Shown here piece by piece: positions 20,215 to 41,029 of a stretch of DNA of 64,000 nucleotides. Each line of letters begins with the position of its first letter. The stretch's first letter is position 1. The notes beneath the pieces are model-generated. The model was not told the origin of the DNA. It did not search any database and saw nothing but the letters and a program-made list of their open reading frames with translations. Both the position numbers and the translations under genes were made by a program. The DNA is from Candidatus Methanoperedens sp. (GTDB lineage Archaea; Halobacteriota; Methanosarcinia; Methanosarcinales; Methanoperedenaceae), in contig JAPMTS010000014.1 in NCBI GenBank assembly GCA_026552955.1, positions 62,001 through 126,000 on the forward strand. Reading direction: 5' to 3'.

Positions 20215-20216
20215 TA

Positions 20217-21221: not shown

Positions 21222-21252
21222 ATACTAAGTTGAAATCGATGTCGAGGAAGTT

Positions 21253-22569
21253 ATGAATAATGAAAAAGGCATTAGACTCTGGAACAAGGCAAAAGTAATA
21301 ATACCCGGAGGTTCACAATTATTATCTAAAAGATCTGAAATGTTCCTGCCTGAACAATGGCCTTCATATTATGACCGGGCAAAAGGGTGCCAGGTGTGGG
21401 ATCTGGACGGGAACGGATACACTGATATGAGTACCATGGGCATAGGTGCATGCATTCTCGGATATGCAGATGATGATGTTGATGGGGCTGTCAAATCTGC
21501 TATAGACAGAGGAAGTATGTGCACCCTGAATGCGCCTGAAGAAATCGAACTTGCCGAACTCCTGATCCGGCTTCATCCATGGGCGCAGATGGTCAGATAT
21601 GCCAGAACAGGCGGTGAAGCGCTGGCAATGGCTGTTAGAATTGCCCGGGCAAAATCCGGAAAAGATATTGTGCTCTTTTGTGGATATCACGGCTGGCATG
21701 ACTGGTATCTATCATCCAATCTTGCTAATGAAAAATCCCTTGATGGGCACCTGCTACCCGGCCTGCAACCGCTGGGTGTGCCCAGGGCATTGAAGGGAAC
21801 TTCATTCCCGTTCAACTATAATGACACAAAGGGGTTCATGGAACTCATAACTCGGCATAAGGACAATGTTGGCGTGATAGTCCTGGAAGCTATAAGAAGT
21901 CATGATCCGGAACATGAATTCTTGATGGCGATACAGAAAGTCATTAAAGATTTGGGGATAGTTTTGATAATCGATGAGGTCAGCTCCGGCTGGAGAATGA
22001 ACCTGGGAGGAGCTCATCTACTGTATGATATCAAACCCGATATAGCTGTTTTTGCAAAAGCGATCAGCAATGGCTACCCCATGGCAGCGGTCATAGGCAG
22101 GGGAGATGTAATGGAAGTTGCCCAGGATACTTTTATCAGCAGTACATACTGGACTGATAGGATTGGCCCGACTGCAGCACTTGCCACGATAAATAAGATG
22201 AAAGAGAATGATGTGCAGAACCATTTGATGGATATAGGAAAAAAAGTGCAGGAAGGATGGAGCTCTTTGGCCTCCGACCATGATCTCGATATAGAAGTAT
22301 CCGGAATATATCCGCTTGGACATTTCGAATTCAAATATGAGGATCCACTTGTTCCTAAAACCCTCTTCACGCAGTTGATGCTTGAGAAGGGTTTTCTTGC
22401 TACGACTGGATTCTATTCCTCATATTCACACAAAGATGAGGATGTTGAAAGATTTTTAACTGCTGTTGATAGTTCTTTTAAGTTTATCGCAAAAGCTATA
22501 AAAGAAGGAAAACCGGAAAAATATCTGAAAGGCCCGGTGTGCCACTCAGGGTTCAAAAGATTAACATGA
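21253..22569 (+). CDS. Class III aminotransferase (glutamate-1-semialdehyde aminomutase-like)
   Basis: This 438-aa PLP fold-type I enzyme has IPGGSQLLSKRS, WDLDGNGYTDMSTMGIG, YARTGGEALAMAVRIAR near residue 115, FCGYHGWHDWYL, LIIDEVSSGWRM with the PLP-binding Asp near 240, and FAKAISNGYPMAAVIG with the Schiff-base Lys near 270. It resembles glutamate-1-semialdehyde aminomutase but sits in a glycan locus after an oxidoreductase, so it probably aminates a keto-sugar. It is not likely the heme-pathway enzyme, for that gene normally lies with hem genes. It overlaps the next gene by 4 bases. Confidence 0.83.
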   Translation: MNNEKGIRLWNKAKVIIPGGSQLLSKRSEMFLPEQWPSYYDRAKGCQVWDLDGNGYTDMSTMGIGACILGYADDDVDGAVKSAIDRGSMCTLNAPEEIELAELLIRLHPWAQMVRYARTGGEALAMAVRIARAKSGKDIVLFCGYHGWHDWYLSSNLANEKSLDGHLLPGLQPLGVPRALKGTSFPFNYNDTKGFMELITRHKDNVGVIVLEAIRSHDPEHEFLMAIQKVIKDLGIVLIIDEVSSGWRMNLGGAHLLYDIKPDIAVFAKAISNGYPMAAVIGRGDVMEVAQDTFISSTYWTDRIGPTAALATINKMKENDVQNHLMDIGKKVQEGWSSLASDHDLDIEVSGIYPLGHFEFKYEDPLVPKTLFTQLMLEKGFLATTGFYSSYSHKDEDVERFLTAVDSSFKFIAKAIKEGKPEKYLKGPVCHSGFKRLT

Positions 22570-23501
22570 AATATGAACGAAAAGGTACGGATAAAATGAT
22601 GCCCCATCAAAAAAAATATACCGTCATAAAAGACCCGGAATATGAATATCTACGGATAGACCCCATACCATCAAAAGAAGAAGTGGAACGTTTCTATCTG
22701 GAAGAGTTCTATACCTCCAAATATAAACAATTCAATGACTCTTCCCTTGAAGTACAGAAAGAAGAAAAAGAATTCTTTGACAGTCGATGGCAGTCGGTCT
22801 GCGATCAATGCTCTGAATATTTCGGCAAGCTTGACGGATTATCCGTTTTTGATATCGGCTGCGGATTTGCGCAGGCATTACTATACTTCCGCGATAGGGG
22901 AATGAATGTCAGCGGTCTTGAGCCGTCATCCGAAGGTGTGGCGTATGCCAATTCCCAGGGGATCAATGTCTTTCATGCAGGAATCGAAGAGCTCAATTGT
23001 GCCGGCTCGGAAAGGTTTGATATTGTAACGATATTCGATGTGCTTGAGCATCTTCGGGCTCCAGCGGACACATTGACCGGCATAAAAGAGAATTTATTAA
23101 AACCCGGGGGGCTGCTGGTTATCGATGTTCCCAACGAGTTCAATGATTTCCAGGTGGCAGCAAATGCCGAGTATAACCTTAATGAATGGTGGGTATGCCC
23201 CCCGAACCATATCAATTATTTTTCAGTGAACAGTATGAAGCACCTGCTTGAAAAATGCGGATATTCGGTCAAATTTTGCGAATCCTCTTTTCCCATTGAA
23301 ATTTTTATGCTGATGGGAGATGTATATGTGGGAAATAGCGAACTTGGAAAGGCATGTCATCAAAAACGTGTTACATTTGAATATCTTATGAAAAAACACG
23401 GAAAGAGTAAAAAATTATCCAAATTTTACCAGGCGCTTTCCGATCTTGACCTGGGAAGACAGTTTGTTGTATATGCAACACCAAACAAAGGAGCCGATTA
23501 A
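22566..23501 (+). CDS. SAM-dependent methyltransferase
   Basis: This class I methyltransferase (311 aa) has motif I VFDIGCGFAQALLYFRDRG near residue 93, the GLEPS loop, FDIVTIFDVLEHLRAPADTL near 155 and LLKPGGLLVIDVPNEF. This is the Methyltransf_23 pattern common in glycan loci. The start at 22566 gives an ATGA junction with the preceding aminotransferase; an ATG at 22596 with AAAGGT upstream is a plausible alternative. The N-terminal YLRIDPIPSKEEVERFYLEEFY segment is shared by sugar O- or C-methyltransferases of this type. Specific acceptor unknown. Confidence 0.82.
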   Translation: MKYERKGTDKMMPHQKKYTVIKDPEYEYLRIDPIPSKEEVERFYLEEFYTSKYKQFNDSSLEVQKEEKEFFDSRWQSVCDQCSEYFGKLDGLSVFDIGCGFAQALLYFRDRGMNVSGLEPSSEGVAYANSQGINVFHAGIEELNCAGSERFDIVTIFDVLEHLRAPADTLTGIKENLLKPGGLLVIDVPNEFNDFQVAANAEYNLNEWWVCPPNHINYFSVNSMKHLLEKCGYSVKFCESSFPIEIFMLMGDVYVGNSELGKACHQKRVTFEYLMKKHGKSKKLSKFYQALSDLDLGRQFVVYATPNKGAD

Positions 23502-24569
23502 ATGGAATTTACCGATATTTCGCGATATTTACCGGTCAAAAGTGCATCAATTCTGCCTTTTGAAAAGCTGCGCCATATGGAACCCGTGTGGATGACCCAG
23601 GACCTTAAGATTGTTGACGAACCCAAAAACATTGATTATGCGAAATCATTAGCCAGTAAGGGGATTATCGTCGTGCCGATCAGACGCCGACCCCTGTCCT
23701 CCAAATATATTGATCGAAAAACTTTCCCGCGCAGGATCTTATTTGAAATGACAAGCCGCTGCAATTTTCATTGCACAATGTGCCCCCAGCAGAATCTGAA
23801 ACGCCCCCGGATGGATATGCCCGGCGAGGATTACAGGAGGGTCATTGATGAAATTGATAAGTATGGTATTGAAGGATTATGGCTATATCATTTAGGCGAA
23901 TCCCTGTTGCACCCCGAATTCCGGGAAAATGTCAATCATATAAGTAAGAAGAAAAATCTTGGGATCATCTGGATGAGTACGAACGGGCAGTATTTTACCG
24001 AAGATAATATCAGGTGTGTTCTTGATTCGAATATTGATTATATCAATTTTTCTGCACATGCAGTAACAGAGGAAACATATAATAAAGTGGCTTCTGAAGG
24101 TGATTTCAGGATAGTCCAGGGGAATCTGGAAAAATTATATGAATTGAAAGGAACTGACAAGTTACCCCGCAAACCCTTCATCCACTGTCAGATGATCGAG
24201 CAGGAAACAACAAAACACGAGGTTGATGCATTCATACAGAAACACTATAAACGTGCTGATATCGTATCTATTAACATGTTAGAATATGTGAATCTTCCCA
24301 GTAATATATTTGGCCTTAAACAAAGAGAACGGAAACCTTTGACTTCATGCTTGCGTGTATCCCGAAGCGATTGCTTCATTTGTTCCAACGGCGCTGTAAC
24401 TCTCTGTGACGCTGCTTATAATGGTGAAATTCATCTGGGTAGTATCCACGAACAAACATTATTCGAAATCTGGAATGGAGAACGAAGAAAAAAGATTCTT
24501 GAACTTAATGAGCAGGATCGGATGTCTGAAATAGAGTTTTGCAGCAAATGCACTGATTATGATATCTAA
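23502..24569 (+). CDS. Radical SAM protein with SPASM-like C-terminus
   Basis: This 355-aa radical SAM enzyme has the cluster motif CNFHCTMC near residue 87 inside LFEMTSRCNFHCTMCPQQN, a YHLGESLLHPEF strand, and a cysteine-bearing C-terminus: SCLRVSRSDCFICSNGAVTLCD near 280-305 and FCSKCTDYD at the end. It begins immediately after the methyltransferase stop. Unlike the other four radical SAM proteins of the locus it has no B12 domain. Related proteins in bacterial surface-polysaccharide clusters are uncharacterised, so substrate assignment would be a guess. Confidence 0.83.
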   Translation: MEFTDISRYLPVKSASILPFEKLRHMEPVWMTQDLKIVDEPKNIDYAKSLASKGIIVVPIRRRPLSSKYIDRKTFPRRILFEMTSRCNFHCTMCPQQNLKRPRMDMPGEDYRRVIDEIDKYGIEGLWLYHLGESLLHPEFRENVNHISKKKNLGIIWMSTNGQYFTEDNIRCVLDSNIDYINFSAHAVTEETYNKVASEGDFRIVQGNLEKLYELKGTDKLPRKPFIHCQMIEQETTKHEVDAFIQKHYKRADIVSINMLEYVNLPSNIFGLKQRERKPLTSCLRVSRSDCFICSNGAVTLCDAAYNGEIHLGSIHEQTLFEIWNGERRKKILELNEQDRMSEIEFCSKCTDYDI

Positions 24570-24575
24570 ATAATT

Positions 24576-25079
24576 ATGAATTTAAATGTTTCCCTTGTTC
24601 CATTTAGAGAGGAGCATATTTCATTGACATTCGAATGGATCCAGGATCCGGATTTTCAGCAATTATTTCTAATGCGCGACAGACCAACATGGGACGGACA
24701 TATAAAATATTTTGACAACATGCTGAAAGATCCTGCACAGCGTGTTTATGCTATACTGTCAGAAGGCAGGCATGTAGGCAACTGCGGGGTGAAAAATATT
24801 TCCTTAACTAACAAGGAAGGTGAACTCTGGATATACATCGGAGACCCGCGTATGCGAAGAAAAGGCATTGCGAGCCATGCAACGCGATTACTGGCAGCCA
24901 AAGGATTTATCGAACTCGGATTGGAAAGAATTATAGTCCATGTTGCTGATTTCAATGTTTCAGCCATAAAACTCTATAAAAAACTTGGGTTTATTGAGGT
25001 TCCGGTCAGTGATAATTCAAAGGAATGGACGAACCGTGGATGCAATATCATCCGTATGGAGTTGAAAAAACAAACATGA
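24576..25079 (+). CDS. pseH: GNAT acetyltransferase, PseH-like
   Basis: This 167-aa GCN5-type N-acetyltransferase has HVGNCGVKNIS and ELWIYIGDPRMRRKGIASHATRLL, with the R/Q-x-x-G-x-G/A-type acetyl-CoA loop RRKGIA near residue 98, and a C-terminal NVSAIKLYKKLGF segment near residue 130. This is the PseH organisation, which acetylates the 4-amino group of the UDP-sugar made by PseC. The pathway context (pseB, pseC, pseI in the same run of genes) supports that role; other amino sugars are possible. It overlaps the WbqC-like gene by 4 bases. Confidence 0.75.
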   Translation: MNLNVSLVPFREEHISLTFEWIQDPDFQQLFLMRDRPTWDGHIKYFDNMLKDPAQRVYAILSEGRHVGNCGVKNISLTNKEGELWIYIGDPRMRRKGIASHATRLLAAKGFIELGLERIIVHVADFNVSAIKLYKKLGFIEVPVSDNSKEWTNRGCNIIRMELKKQT

Positions 25080-25822
25080 AAGTGGCAATGATGCAGCCAG
25101 CCTTTATACCGTGGCAGGGTTTTTTTGAATTGATACACAACTCGGATGTATTTATTTTTCTTGATGATTTCCAGTTCTCAGCCCAGAGCTACCACCAGCG
25201 CAATCGCCTTTTTGTAAATAAAGACCGGATAGACTGGTACATAGTGCCAGTTCAGAAGTCCATCTCTTTCAAATTGCCTCTAAATCAGACCATAACCAAC
25301 GAAACAACTTTCTGGCGCAAGAAGATGTGGAAGCGAATTCAACAGAACTATTCGGGAGCGAAATATTATTATGAATTCGCACCCTTCATCGAAAAATGGT
25401 TATCTACTCCTATGGAATCGCTGGCAGCACAGAATATTGCATTTATAAAGTATGTTTGTGAGCAGCTGGATATTCGACCGGAATTCCGGCTCAGTTCCCA
25501 ATATCCCTCTGGATCACATAGATCTGTCCGGGTAGTCGAATTACTGCGATCGTGCCATGCAGATAGTTACTTTTGCGCGAAGGGTTCATTCTTATACATG
25601 CTTGAAGATGGTATTTTCCCGCTCCATGACATTGCGGTATTTTTCCAGGATTTCCAGCCAGGATCCTACCAACAAATAGGGTCTCCGGGAAAATTCATAC
25701 AACATCTGTCAATTATTGATGCACTTATGAATATAGGAGCAGAGGGTACGGCAGAGCTTGTTAAAAAAGGGACACGTAAATGGCTGACCTGGGAAGAAAT
25801 AATCGCATTAAAATCACATTGA
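25076..25822 (+). CDS. WbqC-like family protein
   Basis: This 248-aa protein belongs to the WbqC-like family (PF08889). The family opening KVAMMQPAFIPWQGFFELIH is followed by FIFLDDFQFSAQSYHQRNRL and WYIVPVQK, then an IAFIKYVCEQL segment and a C-terminal SIIDALMNIGAE block. WbqC proteins occur in O-antigen loci and may be amino-transfer or acyltransfer enzymes, but no reaction is firmly established. The start at 25076 (ATGA junction) removes 17 residues read in the wrong frame over the acetyltransferase gene. It ends 11 bases before pseI. Confidence 0.83.
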   Translation: MKVAMMQPAFIPWQGFFELIHNSDVFIFLDDFQFSAQSYHQRNRLFVNKDRIDWYIVPVQKSISFKLPLNQTITNETTFWRKKMWKRIQQNYSGAKYYYEFAPFIEKWLSTPMESLAAQNIAFIKYVCEQLDIRPEFRLSSQYPSGSHRSVRVVELLRSCHADSYFCAKGSFLYMLEDGIFPLHDIAVFFQDFQPGSYQQIGSPGKFIQHLSIIDALMNIGAEGTAELVKKGTRKWLTWEEIIALKSH

Positions 25823-25833
25823 GGTGAAGTAAC

Positions 25834-26880
25834 TTGGAAATTAATATTGCAGAAAAAAAAGTGGGCGGAATAAATTCTGTATTTATCGTTGCGGAGCTAT
25901 CGGCAAATCACCTCCAGAAGTATGATCTGGCTGTAAAGACGATCAGAGCTGCAAAAGAATCCGGAGCAGATGCCGTCAAGTTTCAGACATATACGCCGGA
26001 CACGATCACCATTGATTCAAATGAGGAATATTTTCAGATAAAACAGGGAACCATATGGGACGGGAAGACCCTCTATCAACTGTATCAGGAGGCATATACT
26101 CCCTGGGAATGGCACTCAAAATTAAAAAAAATAGCAAAAGACCTGGGATTGATCTTTTTCTCTACTCCATTTGATAAAACTGCAGTTGATCTTCTTGAGG
26201 GAATGGATGTGCCCGTATATAAGATAGCATCACTTGAAATAACAGATATCCCTTTGATCGAATACATAGCATCTAAAGGGAAACCAGTGATAATATCAAC
26301 AGGGATAGCAACCCTATCTGACATTGAAGAAGCTGTGAATGCCTGCAGGAGAAAGGGTAACAGCCAGATAGTCCTCTTGAAATGCACATCAGAATATCCC
26401 GCATCGCTGGAAGATGCAAATCTGAGGACGATCCCGAATATGAGAGAGACCTTTAACACAGTAGTGGGATTCTCAGATCATACCATGGGCATCTCAGCTC
26501 CAATTGCCGCTGTTTCCCTTGGGGCAAAGATAATTGAAAAGCATTTCATACTTGACCGGAAGCTTGGCGGTCCTGATGCAACGTTCTCATCAGAACCCGA
26601 AGAGTTCAAGGCAATGGTAAAGGCTGTAAGAGAGGTGGAAACGGCACTGGGAAGCGTCAATTATGAGCTATCTGAAAAGACAAAGAGAAGCAGGGAATTC
26701 TCACGCTCATTGTTCGTAGTAAAAGATGTTAAGAAAGATGATTCTTTGACGTTTGAAAATATAAGGTCTATCAGACCCGGTTTTGGGCTTCATCCCAGAT
26801 ATATGAATAATATTATCGGGAAGAGGGCAAGGAAAGATATTAAAAGGGGAACTCCTTTGAACTGGGATCTGGTCGAATAA
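25834..26880 (+). CDS. pseI: Pseudaminic acid synthase
   Basis: This 348-aa NeuB-family enzyme condenses phosphoenolpyruvate with a 6-deoxy-diacetamido sugar to form pseudaminic acid. The PseI-type pattern is clear: AELSANHLQKYDLA near residue 20, VKFQTYTPDTI, GTIWDGKTLYQLYQEAYTPW, STPFDKTAVDLL, KIASLEITDIPLI and GFSDHTMG. The C-terminal SAF (antifreeze-like) domain begins near 285 with SRSLFVVKDVKKDD and RPGFGLHPRYM. The TTG start at 25834 is supported by GAGGTG at 25821-25826. It shares one base with the next gene. This is the best single marker that the locus makes a nonulosonic acid. Confidence 0.92.
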   Translation: MEINIAEKKVGGINSVFIVAELSANHLQKYDLAVKTIRAAKESGADAVKFQTYTPDTITIDSNEEYFQIKQGTIWDGKTLYQLYQEAYTPWEWHSKLKKIAKDLGLIFFSTPFDKTAVDLLEGMDVPVYKIASLEITDIPLIEYIASKGKPVIISTGIATLSDIEEAVNACRRKGNSQIVLLKCTSEYPASLEDANLRTIPNMRETFNTVVGFSDHTMGISAPIAAVSLGAKIIEKHFILDRKLGGPDATFSSEPEEFKAMVKAVREVETALGSVNYELSEKTKRSREFSRSLFVVKDVKKDDSLTFENIRSIRPGFGLHPRYMNNIIGKRARKDIKRGTPLNWDLVE

Positions 26881-27635
26881 TGGCACAAAATATAAAATTC
26901 GGCCTGAAACTCTGGTCAACAAATACTGCTTTGATAGATAAAGCGGTAAAACTATTAGATGAAAAGATTTTCGATTATATTGAGCTGTTCGTTTTACCTG
27001 ATACTGATATAGCTCCGTTCCTGGTAGATGTGCCCTATGTCATTCATATCCCCCACCATCAATTCGGCGTGAGCATCGGTGAAGCCATTAAAAAAAAGCA
27101 TAGTCTTGAAAAAATCCGCGAGAGTTTTAATTGGGCCGATAAATTGGATGCCAGATACCTTATACTCCATGCTGGCACAGGTTCGCTGCAGCATGCTTCC
27201 GATTTTATTAATGAAATATCAGACGGACGCCTGCTTATTGAAAATATGCCAGGATTCGGATTGAATCGGGAGCCAATGATAGGCTTTTCTCCTCAACAAA
27301 TTGAAGAGTTGATCGGTGGAAATGATATCGGATTATGCCTGGATTTTGGGCATGGCATAAAAGCAGCTTCAAGCCAAAAGAAAGATTATAAGGACTATAT
27401 AAATTCTTTTCTATATCTTGAGCCAGAGATATTCCATTTGAGCGATGGGATGGCCGGTAATGAAATGGACGAACATCTGAGTCTTGGGGATGGTGATTTT
27501 GATTTCGAATTTTTGCTGGGATGTGCCATGAAAAGCAGTTCCGGAACGATAACATTGGAGACGCCCAGAAAGAATCAGGACTCTTTCCAGGAAGATCTTC
27601 GAAACCTTCATTTCTTGAATAATATTATGAGATGA
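26880..27635 (+). CDS. Sugar phosphate isomerase/epimerase-like TIM barrel
   Basis: This 251-aa protein matches the xylose-isomerase-like TIM barrel family (AP_endonuc_2). VPYVIHIPHHQFGVS near residue 55, YLILHAGTG, LLIENMPGFGLN with the metal-binding glutamate near residue 120, GLCLDFGHGIKA and IFHLSDG carry the usual metal ligands. Members isomerise or epimerise sugars; endonuclease IV has the same fold but more ligands. It directly follows pseI (TAATG), so it may act on the sugar acid or an earlier intermediate. Exact reaction unknown. Confidence 0.76.
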   Translation: MAQNIKFGLKLWSTNTALIDKAVKLLDEKIFDYIELFVLPDTDIAPFLVDVPYVIHIPHHQFGVSIGEAIKKKHSLEKIRESFNWADKLDARYLILHAGTGSLQHASDFINEISDGRLLIENMPGFGLNREPMIGFSPQQIEELIGGNDIGLCLDFGHGIKAASSQKKDYKDYINSFLYLEPEIFHLSDGMAGNEMDEHLSLGDGDFDFEFLLGCAMKSSSGTITLETPRKNQDSFQEDLRNLHFLNNIMR

Positions 27636-31089: not shown

Positions 31090-31860
31090 ATGCATAATCC
31101 ACTGAAAAATAAATTAAGGAAGAATAATATAACGATCGGGAGCTGGATAACACTCGGAAACACAAACATTCCCGAAATAATGGCACAATCGGGATTTGAG
31201 TGGCTTACGATCGATATTGAGCATAGCGTGATCGAGATAGATACACTCCAGCAGCAGATACAGGTAATTGAAGGAAAAGGGGTTGTTCCGCTTGTAAGAG
31301 TGGGAGAAAATAATCCAAATTTGATAAAAAGAGTAATGGATGCCGGAGCGTATGGTGTAATTGTACCCATGGTAAATACCAGGGAACATGCACTGGCGGC
31401 CGTAAAAGCAGTAAAATACCCGCCGACAGGAACACGTGGTGTTGGCCTGGCAAGAGCACAGGGTTATGGTTTTGATTTTGACAATTATGCTGCGACTATC
31501 AATGAAGAATCTGTGGTAATAGTCCAGGTGGAACACATTGATTCTGTACGCAACCTCGAATCGATACTTTCAGTAGGAGGCGTTGACGGCTGCATCATAG
31601 GACCTTATGATCTATCCGGTTCACTTGGAGTTCCGGGGAATTTCACACATCCTGAAGTCCTTGCAGCTTTAAAAAGGGTGGAAGAAGTATGCAAAAAAAT
31701 GAAAGTCCCGCTTGGGATCCATGTCATCCAGCCAGACTACAGGTTAGTTCTTGACAATGTTAAAAAGGGATATACCTTCATAGCGTTCAGTCTGGATTCA
31801 TTGTTCCTTGGAACATCCTGCAGGGAACAATTGAAATTGCTAAAGGAAGGTTTGCCATGA
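31090..31860 (+). CDS. HpcH/HpaI-family pyruvate aldolase
   Basis: This 256-aa class II aldolase has WLTIDIEHSVIEIDTL with the start of the barrel near residue 37, the R-x-x-x-x-R region RGVGLARAQGYG near 116, VQVEHIDSVRNLESIL with the metal-binding glutamate near 140, and GCIIGPYDLSGSLG with the metal Asp near 175. The family joins or splits pyruvate and an aldehyde, giving 2-keto-3-deoxy acids. Lying next to a KdsB-like CMP-transferase it could build a ulosonate backbone. It overlaps the next gene by 4 bases. Confidence 0.85.
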   Translation: MHNPLKNKLRKNNITIGSWITLGNTNIPEIMAQSGFEWLTIDIEHSVIEIDTLQQQIQVIEGKGVVPLVRVGENNPNLIKRVMDAGAYGVIVPMVNTREHALAAVKAVKYPPTGTRGVGLARAQGYGFDFDNYAATINEESVVIVQVEHIDSVRNLESILSVGGVDGCIIGPYDLSGSLGVPGNFTHPEVLAALKRVEEVCKKMKVPLGIHVIQPDYRLVLDNVKKGYTFIAFSLDSLFLGTSCREQLKLLKEGLP

Positions 31861-32807
31861 TCGATGAAAAAAAAATAAACCCCAATATCGATAAGCTTCA
31901 CAATTATTTTGATAACATCCTTGCCAAATATTTTAAGGATGGCAAGCCTGATCCGGAATATTTTGAACAAACAGCCTGTTATAATTGCGGCAGTCATGAA
32001 ATTGCGAATTCATTTACTGTGAATCAATTTACACATGTTCGATGCAAAAATTGCCAGATGGTATATGTAAATCCGAGATTTAAAGAATCCATAGTCACTA
32101 ATTTATATAATGAAGCCGATTATACTGAATTTTATAAAATAAAATTGATTCCATCAATAGATTACAGGAAAACAGTACTGGCTGAAAAAAAATATGAACA
32201 GATCGCAGGATATTTCAATAAATCAGGCAAGGTACTGGATATCGGAAGCGGGCTGGGAGAAGTACTCAGTGTTTTTAAGGAGCATGGGTGGGATTGCAAA
32301 GGGATCGAGTTCAATGAATTCGCAGCAAATTATTCAAAAGAAAAATTCAGTTTAAATATCCTCAACAAAAGCATATATGATTTTGACTCCTCTGAAAAAT
32401 TTGATGTGATCATGCTGTGGGGAGTTCTGGAACATTTTTTCAAGCCTGCAGACATCCTGAACAAAATACACGAGCTTCTGAATAATGATGGATTGCTGCT
32501 GCTGGAGGTTCCATCAGCGGATTCCGTACTGGTAAGGTACTATGAAAGAACCTCAAAGCCAGTGGACAGAATAATCGAAGGTGACAGGCATATCATGCTT
32601 TTTTCCCTGAGGGGTTTAATAGAAATGACCGAAAATTCGGGTTTTACGCCAATTGAAATAAAATCCAACGGCCTGGATATAAGTACATTAAATAGATTGG
32701 AACTCAATAACACTTTAAACCTTTCACAGGTGAATAAAGTTCAACAATTATTGGATGATTCGATGCAGGGAGACCTATTAAGAGGATTTTTCAAAAAAAA
32801 GGTGTGA
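31857..32807 (+). CDS. SAM-dependent methyltransferase with N-terminal zinc-ribbon-like motif
   Basis: This 316-aa methyltransferase begins with a cysteine knuckle pair, CYNCGSHE and RCKNCQMVYVNPRF (residues about 41-72), typical of sugar C- and N-methyltransferase relatives. The class I core follows with VLDIGSGLGEVLSVFKEHG near 122, a GIEFN loop and FDVIMLWGVLEHFFKPADIL near 180. It lies between the aldolase and the KdsB-like gene, overlapping both, so it probably acts on the same sugar. Substrate unknown. Confidence 0.82.
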   Translation: MIDEKKINPNIDKLHNYFDNILAKYFKDGKPDPEYFEQTACYNCGSHEIANSFTVNQFTHVRCKNCQMVYVNPRFKESIVTNLYNEADYTEFYKIKLIPSIDYRKTVLAEKKYEQIAGYFNKSGKVLDIGSGLGEVLSVFKEHGWDCKGIEFNEFAANYSKEKFSLNILNKSIYDFDSSEKFDVIMLWGVLEHFFKPADILNKIHELLNNDGLLLLEVPSADSVLVRYYERTSKPVDRIIEGDRHIMLFSLRGLIEMTENSGFTPIEIKSNGLDISTLNRLELNNTLNLSQVNKVQQLLDDSMQGDLLRGFFKKKV

Positions 32808-32809
32808 AA

Positions 32810-33574
32810 ATGAAAGTAATTGGCATTATTCCGGCAAGGATGTCCTCAAGCCGTTTTCCGGGAAAACCTCTGGCTAAAATCTGTGGAATGCCTATGGTGG
32901 GTCATGTTTTGATCAGGTCTAAGAAAAGCAAATTGCTTGATGAAGTATATGTCGCCACATGTGACAAAGAAATATATGATTATGTAGAATCCATAGGCGG
33001 CAAGGCGATAATGACTTCAAATAAACATGAAAGAGGTACGGACAGGATAGCTGAGGCTCTTCTAACGATCGAGAAGCGTACAAATGATAAAATCGGGATC
33101 GTGGTCAATATTCAAGGGGATGAGCCCATGCTCACCCCAGAAATGATAGATGCTGCCATCAAACCCATGATAGAAGATCCATCCATTGCTTGCGTGAACC
33201 TGATGGCGCCATTGAATGACCAGGAGGAGCATGAAGATCCGAACGAAGTGAAAGTCGTGGTGGATAAGAGTAATTTTGCCATGTATTTTTCCAGGGAGCC
33301 GATTCCTTCAAGGAAAAAAGGCGCAAAGGACATTCCTATGAACAAGCAGGTTTGTATAATACCTTTCACCAGGGATTTTCTTATCAAATTCACCAATCTT
33401 GAACCAACACCGCTTGAAATCGTGGAATCTGTGGATATGCTAAGAGCAATGGAACACGGTTACAAAGTCAAGATGGTTCCTACAGACGTTATCACGTATA
33501 GCGTGGATAATCAGGAAGATTTAAATGTGGTTGAGGATTTAATGGCAAAAGATAAATTTATATTAACTTATTAG
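32810..33574 (+). CDS. KdsB-like 3-deoxy-manno-octulosonate cytidylyltransferase family protein
   Basis: This 254-aa protein matches CMP-Kdo synthetase: IIPARMSSSRFPGKPLAKI near residue 5 with the CTP-binding loop, VYVATCDKEIYDYVES, a KHERGTDRIAEAL segment, VVNIQGDEPMLTPEMID near 100 with metal-binding Asp, YFSREPIPSRKKG and VESVDMLRAMEHG near 210. KdsB activates Kdo or related 2-keto-3-deoxy sugar acids with CMP. Kdo itself is not expected in an archaeon, so the natural substrate is probably a related ulosonate. The ATG at 32810 fits AAGGTG at 32799-32804; a GTG at 32804 overlaps the previous stop and is the alternative. Confidence 0.85.
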   Translation: MKVIGIIPARMSSSRFPGKPLAKICGMPMVGHVLIRSKKSKLLDEVYVATCDKEIYDYVESIGGKAIMTSNKHERGTDRIAEALLTIEKRTNDKIGIVVNIQGDEPMLTPEMIDAAIKPMIEDPSIACVNLMAPLNDQEEHEDPNEVKVVVDKSNFAMYFSREPIPSRKKGAKDIPMNKQVCIIPFTRDFLIKFTNLEPTPLEIVESVDMLRAMEHGYKVKMVPTDVITYSVDNQEDLNVVEDLMAKDKFILTY

Positions 33575-33624
33575 GGGTATTAAATAGAAAAAAACAAATT
33601 TCTTAATAAATTAATATACCGATT

Positions 33625-34467
33625 ATGAATATGAAAGATATAAGAACTTATTTCCGTAATAGTTTTAAGAACTTTCTAAATGCTCTTTATCTAAAATCAC
33701 TGAGATCTGCGATCGTTGAACAAAAACTATCTCAACTTTACCTGGAACTTGAAAAAATCGTTCCGGATATTTCAGAACAATATTCGTGTTTTAAATTGGA
33801 TTCCGAATATCTGGTCACGAATGTCAGGGGAATGCACTCATTTCAGATATCTCTCACAAATGAGGCGATATCCATGACAAATAAGACTCCATTAACCATT
33901 GTTGATATTGGTGACTCTTCAGGGACCCATATCCAATATATCAATGGTATTCATAAAAATATAAAATGTTTAAGTGTTAATCTTGATATGACGGCTGTTA
34001 ATAAAATCAAAGCCAAAGGTCTGGAAGCTATTTTTTCGAGGGCAGAGGATCTTCATAATCACTCCATAACAGCAGACATTTTTCTATCTTTTGAAATGCT
34101 GGAGCATTTGACTGACCCGATAAGATTCCTGCATCAACTATCCGAAAAAACGTCATGCCAGTATTTCGTTGTGACTATACCATTTATCAGGAAGAGCAGA
34201 GTAGCTTTGCATCATATACGGCAAAATATCAGGATGGATAAGTCGGCGGAAAATACTCATATTTTTGAACTATCTCCTGATGATTGGAAGCTAATTTTCA
34301 AACATTCCGGATGGGATATCGCATCAGAGAAAATATATTATCAATATCCCAGGAAAAACATATTATGGTTTATGAAATATTTTTGGCGATCCAGCGACTA
34401 TGAAGGATTTTATGGAGCTATTTTGAAAAGAGATAATACATGGAGCAATCTATACAAAGATTGGTAG
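33625..34467 (+). CDS. Methyltransferase-domain protein
   Basis: This 280-aa protein has a degenerate class I methyltransferase fold: TIVDIGDSSGTHIQYINGIH near residue 90 with serine-serine replacing the usual G-x-G, a CLSVNLD loop, and IFLSFEMLEHLTDPIRFLHQL near 150. A basic segment RKSRVALHHIRQNIR follows. The unusual motif I leaves it open whether it binds AdoMet normally. The ATG at 33625 has a second ATG six bases later; neither has a strong Shine-Dalgarno. Confidence 0.72.
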   Translation: MNMKDIRTYFRNSFKNFLNALYLKSLRSAIVEQKLSQLYLELEKIVPDISEQYSCFKLDSEYLVTNVRGMHSFQISLTNEAISMTNKTPLTIVDIGDSSGTHIQYINGIHKNIKCLSVNLDMTAVNKIKAKGLEAIFSRAEDLHNHSITADIFLSFEMLEHLTDPIRFLHQLSEKTSCQYFVVTIPFIRKSRVALHHIRQNIRMDKSAENTHIFELSPDDWKLIFKHSGWDIASEKIYYQYPRKNILWFMKYFWRSSDYEGFYGAILKRDNTWSNLYKDW

Positions 34468-34517
34468 AGATAATAATGAAATTTCCTTTTATGAAACTAA
34501 AAACATGGTGATTCCCG

Positions 34518-36008
34518 ATGTCCACTAAATTCAAAGTATTGCTTGTTTATCCAAATCTTCAAATGATCAATTTATTGCCAAGCAATATATCCATACTCAG
34601 TGCAAGCCTCAAACAAAAAGGATTCGAAGTGGATATTTTTGATACGACATTTTATAAAACCGAGCAGCAAAGCATCGATGAAAAAAGAGTCGAAATATTA
34701 CAGCTAAGGCCATTTGATCTTACAAAATACGGCTTGCATTATGCAAATACGAATGTATATGACGATTTCAGGAAAAAAGTTGAGAGTTTCAAACCTGACC
34801 TCATTTCTATAACAATAGTAGATGACACGCTGCATTTGAGCATCGAATTATTAAAAACAGTGTCTGATCTTGATATTCCTGTTTGTGCAGGCGGTGTACA
34901 TGTTATTTTTTCACCTGAAGCGGTTTTGTCACACGATGAAGTGGATTATATCTGCTGGGGTGAAGGGGAGGAGGCTTTGCCTGAGCTATGCAGCCACCTG
35001 AAAGACAATTTGCCCCTTGATAACATAAAAAATATCTGGTCTAAGAAAAATGGAAAAATAATCCAAAACAGTATGAGGGAACTCGTGAATCTGGATGAAA
35101 TACCGTACAACGATTTCTCCATATTTGAAGAAAAACGATTTTTCAGACCCATGCAGGGAAAGGTATTCAGGATGGTCCCGGTTGAAATAGATCGCGGTTG
35201 CCCTTATAGCTGCCAGTTCTGCGCAGCACCTCATCTAAGAGCATTATATAAGAAAGAGACAGAATGCAATTATTATAGAATGAAATCCCTTGACAGGGTA
35301 ATTGATGAAATAAAATTTTATATTAAAAAATATAAAGCAGAATATATTTTTTTCAATTCGGAAACTTTTCTTGCGATGCCGGACGCTAAATTCGATGAAT
35401 TCTCCAGAAGGTATATCGATGAAATCAAAATCCCATTCTGGTGCCAGTCAAGGATTGAAACTATATCGGATTTTAAGATCAGCAGGCTTGTCAGTATGGG
35501 ATGCGATAGGATTTCGATAGGGCTTGAACACGGGAATGAAGAGTTCAGGAAAAAAGTGCTTAATAAGCCTTTCACAAATGAAAATGTCATTAAGGCTTTT
35601 GAGATATTGAAAAAATATTCCATACCTGTTACAGTTAATAATATCATCGGTTTTCCGGAGGAGACCCGTGAAATGGTTTTTGATACCATATATTTGAACC
35701 GAAAAATATATGCAGATAGCATCAGTGCATTCATTTTTGTTCCGTATCATGGAACGATGCTCAGGGAACTTGCTTTGAAGAAAGGATATATTAATCAGGA
35801 CACAGAAACACATTCTATCGTGTATCCGGCCCTTGATATGCCGCAGTTATCCAAGGAATCGATTTTCGGTCTTCTTCGGACTTTCCCGCTATATATAAAA
35901 ATGCCGGAAAGCAGATTCGGTGAAATAAAGATTGCGGAACAATTTACAGAAGAAGGAAATGCGATGTTCGCGAAACTTGCAGAGGAATATGCGCAAAGGT
36001 ACTGGTAG
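34518..36008 (+). CDS. B12-binding-domain radical SAM protein (2 of 4)
   Basis: This 496-aa protein has an N-terminal cobalamin-binding-type domain (VLLVYPNLQMINLLPSN, SILSASLKQKGFEVDIFD, ISITIVDDTL, VCAGGVHVIFSPE) and a radical SAM core with DRGCPYSCQFCAAPHLRAL near residue 230. ISIGLEHGNEEFRKKVL and VNNIIGFPEETREMV follow. The catalytic use of cobalamin in such proteins ranges from true methyl transfer to no cobalamin at all. It follows the methyltransferase-like gene by 50 bases. The substrate is not known. Confidence 0.85.
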   Translation: MSTKFKVLLVYPNLQMINLLPSNISILSASLKQKGFEVDIFDTTFYKTEQQSIDEKRVEILQLRPFDLTKYGLHYANTNVYDDFRKKVESFKPDLISITIVDDTLHLSIELLKTVSDLDIPVCAGGVHVIFSPEAVLSHDEVDYICWGEGEEALPELCSHLKDNLPLDNIKNIWSKKNGKIIQNSMRELVNLDEIPYNDFSIFEEKRFFRPMQGKVFRMVPVEIDRGCPYSCQFCAAPHLRALYKKETECNYYRMKSLDRVIDEIKFYIKKYKAEYIFFNSETFLAMPDAKFDEFSRRYIDEIKIPFWCQSRIETISDFKISRLVSMGCDRISIGLEHGNEEFRKKVLNKPFTNENVIKAFEILKKYSIPVTVNNIIGFPEETREMVFDTIYLNRKIYADSISAFIFVPYHGTMLRELALKKGYINQDTETHSIVYPALDMPQLSKESIFGLLRTFPLYIKMPESRFGEIKIAEQFTEEGNAMFAKLAEEYAQRYW

Positions 36009-36056
36009 ATATGAAAGTTATGGCTAAACAGGAAAAATAGGGGTAGACCGGAAATC

Positions 36057-36986
36057 ATGAAAATATTGATATCAAGTGCATCATTCGGGAAGATTGACCT
36101 GAAACCTGTGGAAATCCTTGAACGAGAAGGATATACAGTTGTACTCAATAAGAATGGAAGGAAATTTACACCTTCAGAATTCAATGAACTTATCAAGGAT
36201 GCCACAGGCCTGATAGCGGGAACCGAAAAAATAACTGCGGAATTGCTTGAAAAAGCACCTGTTCTAAGAGTAATATCCAGATACGGTGTGGGCATGGACA
36301 ATATTGACCTTGAAGCTGCAAAGAGACTTGGTATTATCGTCAGGAGCACACCAGTTGCTCCCTCCCAGGCTGTTGCCGAACTTGCCCTTTCCCTGATGCT
36401 TAACATATCAAGGCGTGTCAGTGAAGCTGACAGGAATCTGAGGAATAACAATTGGACCCAATTAATGGGAAGGCTTATAACAGGAAAAAATCTCGGCATA
36501 TTAGGACTTGGGAGGATAGGTAAAAAACTGGCAGCAATGGTCCAGCCTTTTGGCATGAAGATATTTGCTTATGAACCTTATCCTGACAATGATTTTGTCG
36601 CTACGAACGGAATATCTCTTTTGCCATTAAATGAAGTTCTTTCACGGTGTGATATAATATCGCTGCACCTGCCTTTATCCGATGATACTTTCCATATGAT
36701 CGGAAAAAAAGAATTATCTTTGATGAAGAAAGATGCCGTTATTATCAATACTTCACGCGGCGGCTTGATAGATGAATCCGCCCTTATCGAAGCTTTAAAA
36801 AATAGAACGATAGGAGGCGCTGCAATTGATACTTTCGAGAAAGAACCTTATATAGGTGAATTAACAAATTTTGAAAATGTTTTATTAACATGCCATATGG
36901 GTTCATCGGCAATAGAAACACGAAGGCAAATGGAATTGGAGACAGTGAATAATTTGATCAATGCTTTGAAAGAGGTTAAATCATGA
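36057..36986 (+). CDS. D-isomer-specific 2-hydroxyacid dehydrogenase (SerA-like)
   Basis: This 309-aa NAD-dependent dehydrogenase has LGILGLGRIGKKLAAMVQPF near residue 145 as the NAD-binding motif, HLPLSDDTFHMIG near 205 and INTSRGGLIDESALIEAL with catalytic Arg near 230. DTFEKEPY carries Glu and LLTCHMGSS carries the catalytic His near 280. It resembles phosphoglycerate dehydrogenase but lacks the ACT regulatory domain (length about 310). In this locus it probably interconverts a 2-keto and a 2-hydroxy sugar acid. It overlaps the next gene by 4 bases. Confidence 0.83.
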   Translation: MKILISSASFGKIDLKPVEILEREGYTVVLNKNGRKFTPSEFNELIKDATGLIAGTEKITAELLEKAPVLRVISRYGVGMDNIDLEAAKRLGIIVRSTPVAPSQAVAELALSLMLNISRRVSEADRNLRNNNWTQLMGRLITGKNLGILGLGRIGKKLAAMVQPFGMKIFAYEPYPDNDFVATNGISLLPLNEVLSRCDIISLHLPLSDDTFHMIGKKELSLMKKDAVIINTSRGGLIDESALIEALKNRTIGGAAIDTFEKEPYIGELTNFENVLLTCHMGSSAIETRRQMELETVNNLINALKEVKS

Positions 36987-37891
36987 AAGCAATAGTGTTT
37001 GGCGGCTCGGGTTTTCTTGGCAGCCATGTTGCAGATGCGCTGCTTAATAAAGGTTATAAAGTTACCATCTTTGACATAACCGGATCATCCTACCTCCAGA
37101 AAGGACAAAAGATGGTAGTTGGAAATATCCTGGACAGGGACGCAGTGAGAAATGCTGTAAGGGGATGCGATGTAGTATACAATTTTGCAGGGATAGCCGA
37201 TCTTGCAAAAGCAAAAGAAGATCCCGTGAGGGCAGTTGAGATCAACATCCTGGGAAATACAATCATCCTGGATGCATGCAGGGAATATAACATCAAAAGG
37301 TTTGTCTTTGCAAGCAGTCTTTATGTTTACAGTAAATCCGGATCGATCTACAGGAGCAGCAAACAGGCTTGTGAGTTGATAATAGAAAATTACCATGAAG
37401 ATTTCGGGCTGTCGTATACCATTCTCAGATATGGCTCCCTGTATGGCCCAAGGGCGGATGAGAACAACTGGATATACAAGGTCATTAACCAGGCGATTTC
37501 CGAGGGAAAGATCACACGCTACGGAGATGGCGAAGAGCTCAGGGAATACATCCACGTGGAGGATGCTGCAAGATGCAGTGTTGATATTCTCTCAAAGGAG
37601 TTTGAAAATGAATATGTGATCCTCACAGGTTACCAGCAGATGAAGATAAAAAATATGATGAAAATGATAAATGAGATGCTTGACAACCGATTGGAACTTG
37701 AATTCCTGCCGGCAGACTCGAATTTGCATTACGAAATCACACCCTATTCTTTCAGCCCGAAAATTGGCAAGAAATACGTGAGCAAGTATTATCTTGATAT
37801 TGGCCAGGGATTATTGCAGTGTCTTGAGGAAGCTTACAAAAAACATCATAAGTATAAAGAGGTCAGCGGCTTGATGATGCAGGATGAATAA
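36983..37891 (+). CDS. NAD-dependent sugar epimerase/dehydratase (extended SDR)
   Basis: This 302-aa SDR has VFGGSGFLGSHVADALL at residues 4-20, FDITGSS, YNFAGIADLAKAKEDP, ASSLYVYS and YRSSKQACE (YxxxK near residue 118), then ILRYGSLYGPRADENNWI and YIHVEDAA. It is a likely paralogue of the SDR at 12555, with a similar order of motifs. It starts within the stop of the dehydrogenase and is followed after 3 bases by the HAD gene. Together these look like consecutive steps on one sugar. Confidence 0.84.
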   Translation: MKAIVFGGSGFLGSHVADALLNKGYKVTIFDITGSSYLQKGQKMVVGNILDRDAVRNAVRGCDVVYNFAGIADLAKAKEDPVRAVEINILGNTIILDACREYNIKRFVFASSLYVYSKSGSIYRSSKQACELIIENYHEDFGLSYTILRYGSLYGPRADENNWIYKVINQAISEGKITRYGDGEELREYIHVEDAARCSVDILSKEFENEYVILTGYQQMKIKNMMKMINEMLDNRLELEFLPADSNLHYEITPYSFSPKIGKKYVSKYYLDIGQGLLQCLEEAYKKHHKYKEVSGLMMQDE

Positions 37892-37894
37892 TAT

Positions 37895-38518
37895 ATGCCC
37901 AGGGCAATTGTTTTTGATTTTGATGGCGTTATTATTGAATCCTTCGATATAAAGACCCAGGCTTTCCGGGAGTTATTTAAAGATTCGGATAAAGTGGATA
38001 AGATAGTTGAATATCACAAACAGAACGGAGGCGTATCCAGGTATAAAAAATTCAGGTACATATACAGTGAGATATTAAAGCAGCCCCTTGACGATAAAAC
38101 TTTCAATGACCTTGGAGAAAGATTTTCAAATCTGGTCGTTGAGGAAGTGAAGAAATGCCCCTATGTTCCCGGAGCTATTGAGTTCATTCGAAACAACTCT
38201 ATGAAATTGAAATTATTTATCGCATCAGGGACGCCGGAGGAAGAACTGCGAGCCATTGTGGCTGCACGCGGCATAACTAAATATTTTAAAGGTATTTACG
38301 GAAGTCCTGCGATAAAATCAGAAATATTGCACGGAATTCTTAGCAGGGAGAATCTTGATAAGAAAGATGTTGTATTTATTGGAGATACGATCACAGATTA
38401 TAACGAAGCCGTTAAGATCGGAGTGCTGTTCATGGCACGAATAAATAGCCTCTCAAACAATCCATTACTTGAACTTGATGTCCCAAAATTCCATGATTTT
38501 TATGAACTCAAGGTATGA
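37895..38518 (+). CDS. HAD-superfamily sugar phosphatase-like hydrolase
   Basis: This 207-aa haloacid-dehalogenase-fold protein has FDFDGVIIESF with the nucleophile and acid aspartates at residues 8-10, FIASGTPEEEL near 110 (motif II), a lysine region near 145, and VFIGDTITDYNEAVKIG with motif IV acids near 165. Such proteins hydrolyse sugar phosphates, for example Kdo 8-phosphate-like intermediates. Adjacency to the SDR, 2-hydroxyacid dehydrogenase and KdsB-like gene fits a phosphatase in a 2-keto-3-deoxy acid pathway. It overlaps the next gene by 17 bases. Confidence 0.83.
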   Translation: MPRAIVFDFDGVIIESFDIKTQAFRELFKDSDKVDKIVEYHKQNGGVSRYKKFRYIYSEILKQPLDDKTFNDLGERFSNLVVEEVKKCPYVPGAIEFIRNNSMKLKLFIASGTPEEELRAIVAARGITKYFKGIYGSPAIKSEILHGILSRENLDKKDVVFIGDTITDYNEAVKIGVLFMARINSLSNNPLLELDVPKFHDFYELKV

Positions 38519-39185
38519 AGTGCTTTCTTATGCGATTAATGCAGCCACTCCAATGTACAGCACAGCTCCCAAACCTGTTTTCACTCCTTATAGTCAGATA
38601 ATAAAGAAAGATACCAGCAATACCTTTGTCATCTCAATGCACAATCATACAGGAACTCATATCGATGCGCCCAAACACTTTGTAAATGATGGTAAATCAA
38701 TTTCAGATTACAGTATTGATGAACTCATTTTTGAAAATCCAATAATAGTGGATTGTCCGAAGAATAGTGCCGAATTGATAACACCTGATGATTTCTCGTA
38801 TGTACTGCATCAGCTTCAAATATGTGATTGCTTGCTTCTGCATACAGGCTATGGGAAGTTTAGAAATGAAGAAAAGTATCGAACTCATAATCCGGGTATT
38901 GCTCCGGAAACGATTTTATGGATAAGAAAAGATTATCCGAATATCCGATGCATCGGGATTGACTCTATTTCAATATCTTCATTTCAGCACAGAAATGAAG
39001 GCAGAGAAGCGCATAAAATTGCATTCACGAAAAGTGAGGGGTTTGGAGAACCATTATTATTTATTGAAGATATTAAACTTGATATGATATCCGGTGAAAG
39101 CATTGAAAAGATTTTCATAATCCCATGGCAGATTGATGGAATTGACAGCGCACCCTGTAATGTAATCGCAATTATCAAAAGTTGA
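38502..39185 (+). CDS. Cyclase-family hydrolase (kynurenine-formamidase-like)
   Basis: This 227-aa protein belongs to the cyclase family (PF04199). The metal-binding signature HTGTHIDAPKHF lies near residue 43, followed by an IVDCPKNSAEL strand, LLLHTGYGKF, and a C-terminal FIIPWQIDGIDSAPCNVIAI. Such metal-dependent hydrolases open or close cyclic esters or amides. In this locus a lactone or formyl-amide of a sugar acid is a possible substrate, which is inference. The start at 38502 lies inside the HAD gene in another frame; the longer frame from 38469 is less likely. Confidence 0.78.
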   Translation: MNSRYEVLSYAINAATPMYSTAPKPVFTPYSQIIKKDTSNTFVISMHNHTGTHIDAPKHFVNDGKSISDYSIDELIFENPIIVDCPKNSAELITPDDFSYVLHQLQICDCLLLHTGYGKFRNEEKYRTHNPGIAPETILWIRKDYPNIRCIGIDSISISSFQHRNEGREAHKIAFTKSEGFGEPLLFIEDIKLDMISGESIEKIFIIPWQIDGIDSAPCNVIAIIKS

Positions 39186-39193
39186 GTTTAGAA

Positions 39194-41029
39194 ATGCAAA
39201 AAAGTCATTTATTTCTTGCTTTCCAGGACGCAAAACATATAAAAAAAATGTTTCCTGGGGGTAAATCGATTCGCTGGCTATATCTGGGATGTGATTTTTT
39301 TAAGAGATGTAATATTGAACTGGAGCTTGGAAACAGATTCGAGCGCATAAACATTGCAAAAATCCATGACGAAGTTGCAGGGGATATAAGGCATGAATAT
39401 GTCAACTGGATAGATGACCTGAATAGAATTTATGGAAAAAAGATTGAGTGGTGGTTCAGCACTATTTCTTCCAGGAATGTTTATGATAGCAACATTTTCC
39501 AGTACATCTGCTATTTAGAGATACTGGAAAGGTTATGGTCAGACAATGATACAAGACCCGAACTCATATTTATTGAATCGTCAGGGCTTGCAAGAGCTAT
39601 CAAAAAATGGGCTGTAAATAGGAATATTGCGCTGGAAATAATAAATTATGATCAGGCAAAGAAGAAGTCTTTGATTAATCAATTATCTTATTTTCTGGGA
39701 TGGGGAAACTTCATTGTTGCCCTATCATTGCGCTGTTTAGCGGCTTGTATTACGGGGAAAAAGCCCAAAGAACTGAAAGATTATCCCATAATTGTGGATA
39801 CTTATCTGCACGACGATTTCCTGACGAAGGATGGTATATTCAAAGATCGTTATTTCCCTTTTCTGCATGAATATTTGTCCGGAAAAGGATCAAGTGTATT
39901 AGTCCATCCGGTTCTTATTGGTTTCCAGTACAACTATTTTCCAATTTATAGAAAGATGCGAAAAAGCCCCACTAATTTTATTATACGGGAAGATTTCTTA
40001 CATTTCCCGGATTATTTCCGGGCAATTGTATATCCAATATATTCCCTGCGGCTAAAAATCAAGGCTCCCCTGTTTCATAATTGGGATCTTAATGACATCC
40101 TGCAGGAAGAACAAAGAGAACAATCGGCCGTATCAAGTATGGACGCAGTATTGATTTATCGGTTGTTTCTGCGCCTTGGACAACATGGATTAAAACCAGG
40201 ACAGGTCATTGACTGGTATGAAAACCAGGTTATTGATAAAGCATTGATCGCAGGAGCGCGTAAAGCTTTTCCACAGGCAAAAGTAGTTGGAGCTCAGATG
40301 TTTATTCATAGTCCTAACTTTGTGAGTTTGTTCCCCTCCCAATCAGAATTTGAAGCAAAAATTGTTCCTCATCTTTTACTTGAAACAAGTCAATACCAAT
40401 GTAAAATGGCTCAAACTTTTACCAGGGATATACCATGTCGGTCCGCCGCAGCTTTACGTTATTCGCATCTCTTTGATGATGAAAATACACCAGACCAGCG
40501 AATAGAGCAAGATTCGAAGATAATTTCAATATTGTTGCCCTTTAATATCACAGAAGCTGTCGAACTATTGGAGACATTTAGATCGGGACTGGATAAAATC
40601 AGAGCTGATGTTCGCATATTGATCAAGGGTCACCCTGATTACGATTCAAAAGAATTGGTGCAATCATTCGGAGAGAATGATTGGCCGGATCGGTATGAGA
40701 TTTTTCAGGGAAATATCGTAGGCGTGTTGAAAATATCATCGATAGTTATTTCATCAAATTCAGGTTCTATGGTCGAAGCAGCAGCAAGAGGAATACCGGT
40801 TATTTTTCTAGGAAGGCAAACAGCGTTGAACCAGAATATTTTATCTGATTTAAATATGGATATTACGACTGAATGCTTTTGCATCTCAGATGTAATAGTA
40901 GCTATTGAAAAGTATCTTAATCTAAACCGGGCTGAAAAAATCAGGTATCACGAGATGGGACAAAAAGTCCGGAATATTTTTTTTGAACCGGTGAATGAAG
41001 AAACTTTATTACCTTTTCTTGATATTTAG
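39194..41029 (+). CDS. Large surface-glycan transferase-like protein (hypothetical)
   Basis: This 611-aa protein is related in style to the 643-aa protein at 27640 but not obviously alike. The C-terminal part (from residue about 435) looks GT-B-like: IISILLPFNITEAVELLETF, VRILIKGHPDYDSKELV, IVGVLKISSIVISSNSGSMVEAAARGIPVIFLG with an SGSMVEAA ribose-binding turn. The N-terminal half shows no clear motif. It begins 9 bases after the cyclase gene; the TTG at 39182 overlaps that stop and is the alternative start, but ATG at 39194 with GAG upstream is preferred. Probably a polymer or nonulosonate transferase. Confidence 0.6.
   Translation: MQKSHLFLAFQDAKHIKKMFPGGKSIRWLYLGCDFFKRCNIELELGNRFERINIAKIHDEVAGDIRHEYVNWIDDLNRIYGKKIEWWFSTISSRNVYDSNIFQYICYLEILERLWSDNDTRPELIFIESSGLARAIKKWAVNRNIALEIINYDQAKKKSLINQLSYFLGWGNFIVALSLRCLAACITGKKPKELKDYPIIVDTYLHDDFLTKDGIFKDRYFPFLHEYLSGKGSSVLVHPVLIGFQYNYFPIYRKMRKSPTNFIIREDFLHFPDYFRAIVYPIYSLRLKIKAPLFHNWDLNDILQEEQREQSAVSSMDAVLIYRLFLRLGQHGLKPGQVIDWYENQVIDKALIAGARKAFPQAKVVGAQMFIHSPNFVSLFPSQSEFEAKIVPHLLLETSQYQCKMAQTFTRDIPCRSAAALRYSHLFDDENTPDQRIEQDSKIISILLPFNITEAVELLETFRSGLDKIRADVRILIKGHPDYDSKELVQSFGENDWPDRYEIFQGNIVGVLKISSIVISSNSGSMVEAAARGIPVIFLGRQTALNQNILSDLNMDITTECFCISDVIVAIEKYLNLNRAEKIRYHEMGQKVRNIFFEPVNEETLLPFLDI

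Follow-up and report, generated by a model that had tools for sequence, protein, structure and literature searches.

CMP-activated sugar acids are thought to derive from the PEP-dependent synthases KdsA and NeuB. What, then, is a KdsB-like cytidylyltransferase doing beside a pyruvate aldolase in an archaeal glycan cluster? The question is raised by the window, the 64,000-nucleotide stretch of DNA analysed here, which belongs to a Candidatus Methanoperedens-type genome (2.48 Mb, 54 contigs, 95% completeness). The genes at issue, all on the forward strand, are as follows.

19468–20214, +: SpsF-type cytidylyltransferase, found as a match of the KdsB query; likely partner of PseI
25834–26880, +: PseI-type NeuB synthase (TIGR03586 PseI, 515 bits) of the cluster's PEP-type nonulosonate route
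31090–31860, +: HpcH/HpaI-type class II pyruvate aldolase (HpcH), proposed former of the C–C bond (PF03328, E 6.8e-36)
31857–32807, +: SAM methyltransferase (MT1) with a zinc-ribbon-like N-terminal segment (PF13489, E 9.3e-24)
32804–33574, +: KdsB-like cytidylyltransferase of a distinct clade (PF02348, E 4.5e-50; above the cut-offs of TIGR00466 and of two NCBIfam subfamilies of KdsB)
33625–34467, +: second methyltransferase-like protein (MT2), accessory (PF13489, E 7e-6, slightly below cut-off)
34518–36008, +: B12-binding radical SAM protein, accessory (PF04055 and PF02310)
36057–36986, +: D-2-hydroxyacid dehydrogenase (HADH), PGDH-like (PF02826, E 3e-59)
36983–37891, +: extended SDR of the epimerase/dehydratase family (PF01370, E 2.5e-46)
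37895–38518, +: HAD phosphatase (PF13419)
38469–39185, +: cyclase-family metal hydrolase, kynurenine formamidase/isatin hydrolase-like (PF04199, E 1.8e-24)
39182–41029, +: 615-aa protein of predicted GT-B fold without a Pfam family, candidate transferase for the activated sugar

Profile searches agree with the initial annotation on the families and coordinates of its seven genes, and the overlap it described among aldolase, methyltransferase and KdsB-like gene is real, with 4 bases at each junction; HADH and SDR overlap by 4 bases as well. The HADH, SDR, HAD and hydrolase genes do follow, but MT2 and the B12/radical SAM gene, which had been overlooked, lie between the two blocks. The GT-B-fold gene, which overlaps the cyclase-family gene, had also been left out. 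The hydrolase is listed with a TTG start; alternative ATG starts lie at 38478, 38493 and 38502. Scans for promoters and terminators found no more matches than in shuffled sequence.

We consider it likely that these genes encode one pathway, in which a 2-keto-3-deoxy sugar acid is built and activated for attachment to a surface glycan. HpcH would join pyruvate to an aldehyde (probably a sugar aldehyde carrying a phosphate) to give the 2-keto-3-deoxy acid; the HAD phosphatase would strip the phosphate, as KdsC does; the KdsB-like enzyme would join the acid to CMP; and a GT-B transferase, perhaps the protein at 39182–41029, would deliver it to the glycan. The SDR, HADH and cyclase-family hydrolase may serve to prepare the aldehyde, or else to adjust the oxidation state and the stereochemistry. 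We infer the order of these steps, the aldehyde, the product and the roles of the last three enzymes; transketolase and transaldolase genes near some archaeal copies of the cassette fit a sugar-phosphate aldehyde without identifying it. What can be read from the sequences is the enzyme families, their intact catalytic residues, their co-occurrence, an altered sugar side in KdsB and the absence of KdsA.

First, the genes travel together. The KdsB-like protein was used as a query against named genomes and taxon groups, yielding 55 clade loci with an identity of roughly 50% or higher, and neighbour families were scored by tblastn within about 20 kb of KdsB, with 65 ordinary KdsB loci, not all of them glycan clusters, as controls. 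In a midpoint-rooted tree, the 55 clade members are monophyletic with respect to the 65 ordinary KdsBs (support 0.79). The clade spans at least nine phyla, with loci from Halobacteriota, Omnitrophota, Campylobacterota, Desulfobacterota, Nitrospirota, Deferribacterota, Bacillota (Peptococcaceae), Pseudomonadota and Bacteroidota, and the order of the cassette genes is shuffled; Chlamydiota also carry the clade, but without HpcH. The proposed route, which the initial annotation placed in an archaeon, is not particular to archaea, most clade members being bacterial. Among the Methanoperedens-genus genomes searched, 4 of 31 (the source genome included) carry the clade, which suggests horizontal transfer.

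HpcH was found near KdsB at 49 of the 55 clade loci and at none of the 65 ordinary ones. The corresponding counts are 43/55 versus 5/65 for HADH, 36/55 versus 0/65 for the SDR, 33/55 versus 0/65 for the HAD phosphatase and 19/55 versus 0/65 for the cyclase-family hydrolase; Fisher P values for these five families range from 2e-27 to 5e-8 and are overstated, because the loci share ancestry and are not independent within a phylum. HpcH is without exception on the KdsB strand, lies less than 200 bases from KdsB in 23 of 49 cases and is missing from 6 of the 55 loci. A four-gene core of HpcH, SDR, KdsB and HAD occurs together in 32/55 loci, and every hydrolase-bearing locus also has HADH. Homologues of MT1 are present at 17/55 cassette loci, making it a frequent companion rather than core. 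Taken together, these counts bear out the co-occurrence that the initial annotation proposed to survey. Homologues of the B12/radical SAM protein occur at 18/55 cassette loci, so that this protein may modify the same glycan. Because the families recur round this clade in many phyla and, HADH excepted, not round ordinary KdsBs, the arrangement is not a chance one.

Second, the enzymes appear to be catalytically intact. In HpcH, residues W19, D42, E44, H45, R70, E149 and D175 (HpaI numbering) are kept in 46–47 of the 47 cassette members, whereas 43 of them keep Q147; with these residues conserved and PF03328 matched above cut-off, the protein belongs to the HpcH/HpaI family. It has its fold and catalytic residues in common with HpaI, GarL and RhmA (YfaU), matching their models with E-values of 1e-60 to 2e-51, but falls below all three equivalog cut-offs (205 versus 368.8 bits for HpaI, 179 versus 406.75 for GarL and 175.5 versus 441 for RhmA) and differs from them in its linkage to a CMP-sugar synthetase and in a Tyr, found in 47/47 cassette members, at the position of HpaI Ala174. 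It is the only PF03328 protein in its genome. Conserved likewise are R234, E263 and H280 of HADH, S111, Y123 and K127 of the SDR, D8, D10, K141, G163-D164 and D168 of the HAD phosphatase, and the HxGTHxDxPxH motif of the hydrolase.

Two of these enzymes invite a reading with a different donor, in which HADH would oxidise 3-phosphoglycerate to phosphohydroxypyruvate, the HAD phosphatase would dephosphorylate it and HpcH would add the resulting hydroxypyruvate to an aldehyde; the ulosonic acid so formed would be 3-hydroxy rather than 3-deoxy. The best NCBIfam match of HADH is indeed phosphoglycerate dehydrogenase, although below cut-off, and one PDB homologue of HpcH is named a hydroxyketoacid aldolase. 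Desulfobacterota loci, however, keep HpcH, SDR, KdsB and HAD without HADH (which may lie elsewhere), and the substrates of known KdsB relatives are 3-deoxy acids; we regard this scheme as rather unlikely.

Third, in the pathway that we favour, with pyruvate as donor, the KdsB-like enzyme looks like a working cytidylyltransferase with a changed sugar site. R10, K19, Q98, D100, R157 and D235 are kept in all 55 clade members. In Escherichia coli KdsB, Q98, D100 and D235 bind metal and Q98 touches the sugar (PMC2901514); with these CTP/Mg residues and R10 and K19 intact, the clade remains within the KdsB/CMP-ulosonate synthetase superfamily. The Kdo side reads differently. In most members of the clade, or in all, S74, G75, N96, W/Y162, R164, H181, G183, Y185, E210 and Q211 have given way to R, A/C, M, S, K, Q, C, I, D and M, respectively. 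Among them are residues almost invariant in Kdo-specific KdsBs, with the replacements S74R in 53/55, H181Q in 54/55, Y185I in 53/55, E210D in 55/55 and Q211M in 54/55. The RHIGVYAYR motif of KdsB, which has been described as belonging to the substrate pocket (PMC7717453), is KQVCIIPFT here, and the C-terminal domain of KdsB contributes to Kdo binding (PMC3149649); that individual replaced residues touch Kdo carbons in KdsB is our expectation. With the CTP/Mg residues kept and the Kdo side replaced, a CMP adduct is still expected, but of another acid: judging from these residues, the enzyme should form a CMP-sugar acid from CTP, and the product of the pathway is probably not Kdo.

The same replacements weigh against a KdsA-free Kdo pathway, in which the aldolase would make Kdo itself from pyruvate and D-arabinose or arabinose 5-phosphate for KdsB to activate. 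Such a pathway would accommodate the scores above the NCBIfam KdsB cut-offs, a HAD phosphatase that could act as KdsC and the lack of KdsA: searches for PF00793 (KdsA/DAHP synthase) found no member in the source assembly (95% complete) or in six further archaeal cassette genomes, against matches in 11 of 14 control genomes. It would, however, leave HADH, SDR and hydrolase without a role, and we hold it to be quite improbable. The initial annotation had envisaged an aldolase-based, KdsA-free CMP-ulosonate route to a Kdo-like sugar. KdsA was absent from all seven archaeal cassette genomes searched, and the aldolase-based scheme draws support from this absence, from the co-occurrence of neighbours and from the separate cytidylyltransferases beside archaeal NeuBs described below; Kdo itself as the product is not supported, given the replacement of Kdo-side residues in almost every clade member (53–55 of 55). 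The capsule of Klebsiella K38 contains a C5 ulosonic acid. We considered it as a clue to the product and set it aside, as the main text of the cps survey mentions neither aldolase nor KdsB.

Fourth, the cluster has a nonulosonate route of its own. Directly upstream of the cassette, the PseI/SpsF-type set at 19468–27635 includes aminotransferase, Gfo/Idh, GNAT, WbqC-like and TIM-barrel genes. DMB labelling has been used to measure nonulosonic acids in a Methanoperedens enrichment (PMC11337218). PseI is the only PF03102 (NeuB) member in the source genome, and SpsF is the only other cytidylyltransferase there matched by the KdsB query. The KdsB-like enzyme might then activate the product of PseI/NeuB, with HpcH and its neighbours serving something else, such as sugar-acid breakdown. 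PseI does lie 5 kb upstream in the window, and PF03102 is matched in 40/40 cassette genomes, although G1423 shows no more than a weak cross-match (E 4e-9); as nearly all of these genomes have a NeuB, its absence cannot serve as a clean test. Yet only 14 of the 55 retrieved loci contain a NeuB homologue, the linkage of KdsB to HpcH (49/55) being far tighter, and the genome's single HpcH protein sits inside the glycan cluster. Moreover, the archaeal NeuBs examined have other cytidylyltransferases in their clusters: one lies about 5 kb or less from the NeuB gene in G275, G313 and G022 and about 11 kb away in G004, and the window's PseI has SpsF. We therefore give this explanation little credence, about as little as Kdo synthesis. 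In the archaeal genome G275 (locus L170, 5221–11424), a short NeuB, a KdsC-like HAD, SIS, transaldolase, transketolase and NeuA are found near the HpcH/KdsB cassette.

Fifth, the cassette that would make the new acid recurs in variant forms. Type A is the window's own gene set. Type B (for example L142, L145, L147, L148, L009 and L014) keeps HpcH, KdsB and HADH, but SDR and HAD give way to Gfo/Idh and SIS genes and, in several loci, to inositol-monophosphatase-like, DHQS-like (3-dehydroquinate-synthase-like) or classical SDR genes as well. The pathway is therefore not uniform; type B perhaps uses a different aldehyde precursor, and the inositol-monophosphatase-like protein would take the place of the HAD phosphatase. 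Type C, from Desulfobacterota (L155–L161), is a compact set of HpcH, SDR, KdsB, hexapeptide acyltransferase and HAD. Some type C sets adjoin truA and flagellar (FlgF/FlgG-like) genes, which may point to a link with flagellin glycosylation. Two further archaeal loci, L118 and L119, have a KdsB of about 42% identity, a distant HpcH (34–35%) and a cyclase-family gene, HpcH adjoining KdsB in L118; they may represent an older branch of this association.

No KdsB of the clade was found in the plasmid and phage collections (best match 46%). A search of the same collections with the aldolase led to a plasmid operon of Acuticoccus (L101, 13983–18435) that comprises HpcH, HADH, HAD and SDR, at 38–45% identity to the window proteins, together with a transferase of NeuA type. 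Recurrence with a different type of transferase argues that the genes form one pathway. That they are instead loosely gathered in variable glycan clusters, as the mosaic nature of such clusters and the variable presence of MT1, MT2 and radical SAM genes might suggest, is highly improbable given the same families in at least nine phyla in reshuffled order, four of them at 0/65 control loci, and again in Acuticoccus.

For the last step of the proposed pathway, the candidate is the protein at 39182–41029. Its predicted model (pLDDT 84, pTM 0.86) has TagF as its best Foldseek match (E 2.5e-8), other GT-B enzymes also being matched, and homologues are present at 13/55 cassette loci at the stricter cut-off and at more by phmmer. 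Its predicted GT-B fold is like that of KpsC/KpsS and TagF-type transferases, but there is no significant sequence match to them (KpsC profile, E 0.47). We rejected its designation as a proven Kdo-type transferase, since only the GT-B fold is supported; it perhaps transfers the activated sugar to the glycan.

The cassette resembles the Kdo pathway (KdsD-KdsA-KdsC-KdsB) in its CTP activation by a KdsB-superfamily enzyme, its HAD phosphatase and its surface glycan product. It departs from that pathway in having an HpcH pyruvate aldolase for KdsA, a HAD of another subfamily, replaced Kdo-side residues in KdsB, and additional HADH, SDR and cyclase-family hydrolase. With the nonulosonate pathways (NeuB/PseI with NeuA/PseF/SpsF) it shares a keto acid formed by C–C bond formation, CMP activation and residence in archaeal and bacterial glycan clusters; but NeuB uses PEP where the cassette has HpcH, and the cassette's transferase is of KdsB type except in Acuticoccus. 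On balance, we are inclined to see here a general route to CMP-activated sugar acids that would stand as the third, next to those of KdsA and NeuB: an aldolase using pyruvate, not PEP, would supply a new ulosonic acid to a synthetase of KdsB type, and the route would extend over one archaeal phylum and eight or more bacterial ones. The open-access literature searched yielded no account of these genes as a set; the novelty is provisional, most subscription papers lying outside the search.

If this is correct, genes annotated as KdsB would need rereading, because current models label the clade as Kdo synthetase. The route would account for KdsB in organisms without LPS, for example archaea and a Peptococcaceae bacterium, and the cassette may offer a lead from bacteria to ulosonic acids of obscure origin, among them plant Dha, the activated form of which is undefined (PMC12168206). 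It would also predict a new acidic sugar on the surfaces of the organisms that carry the cassette.
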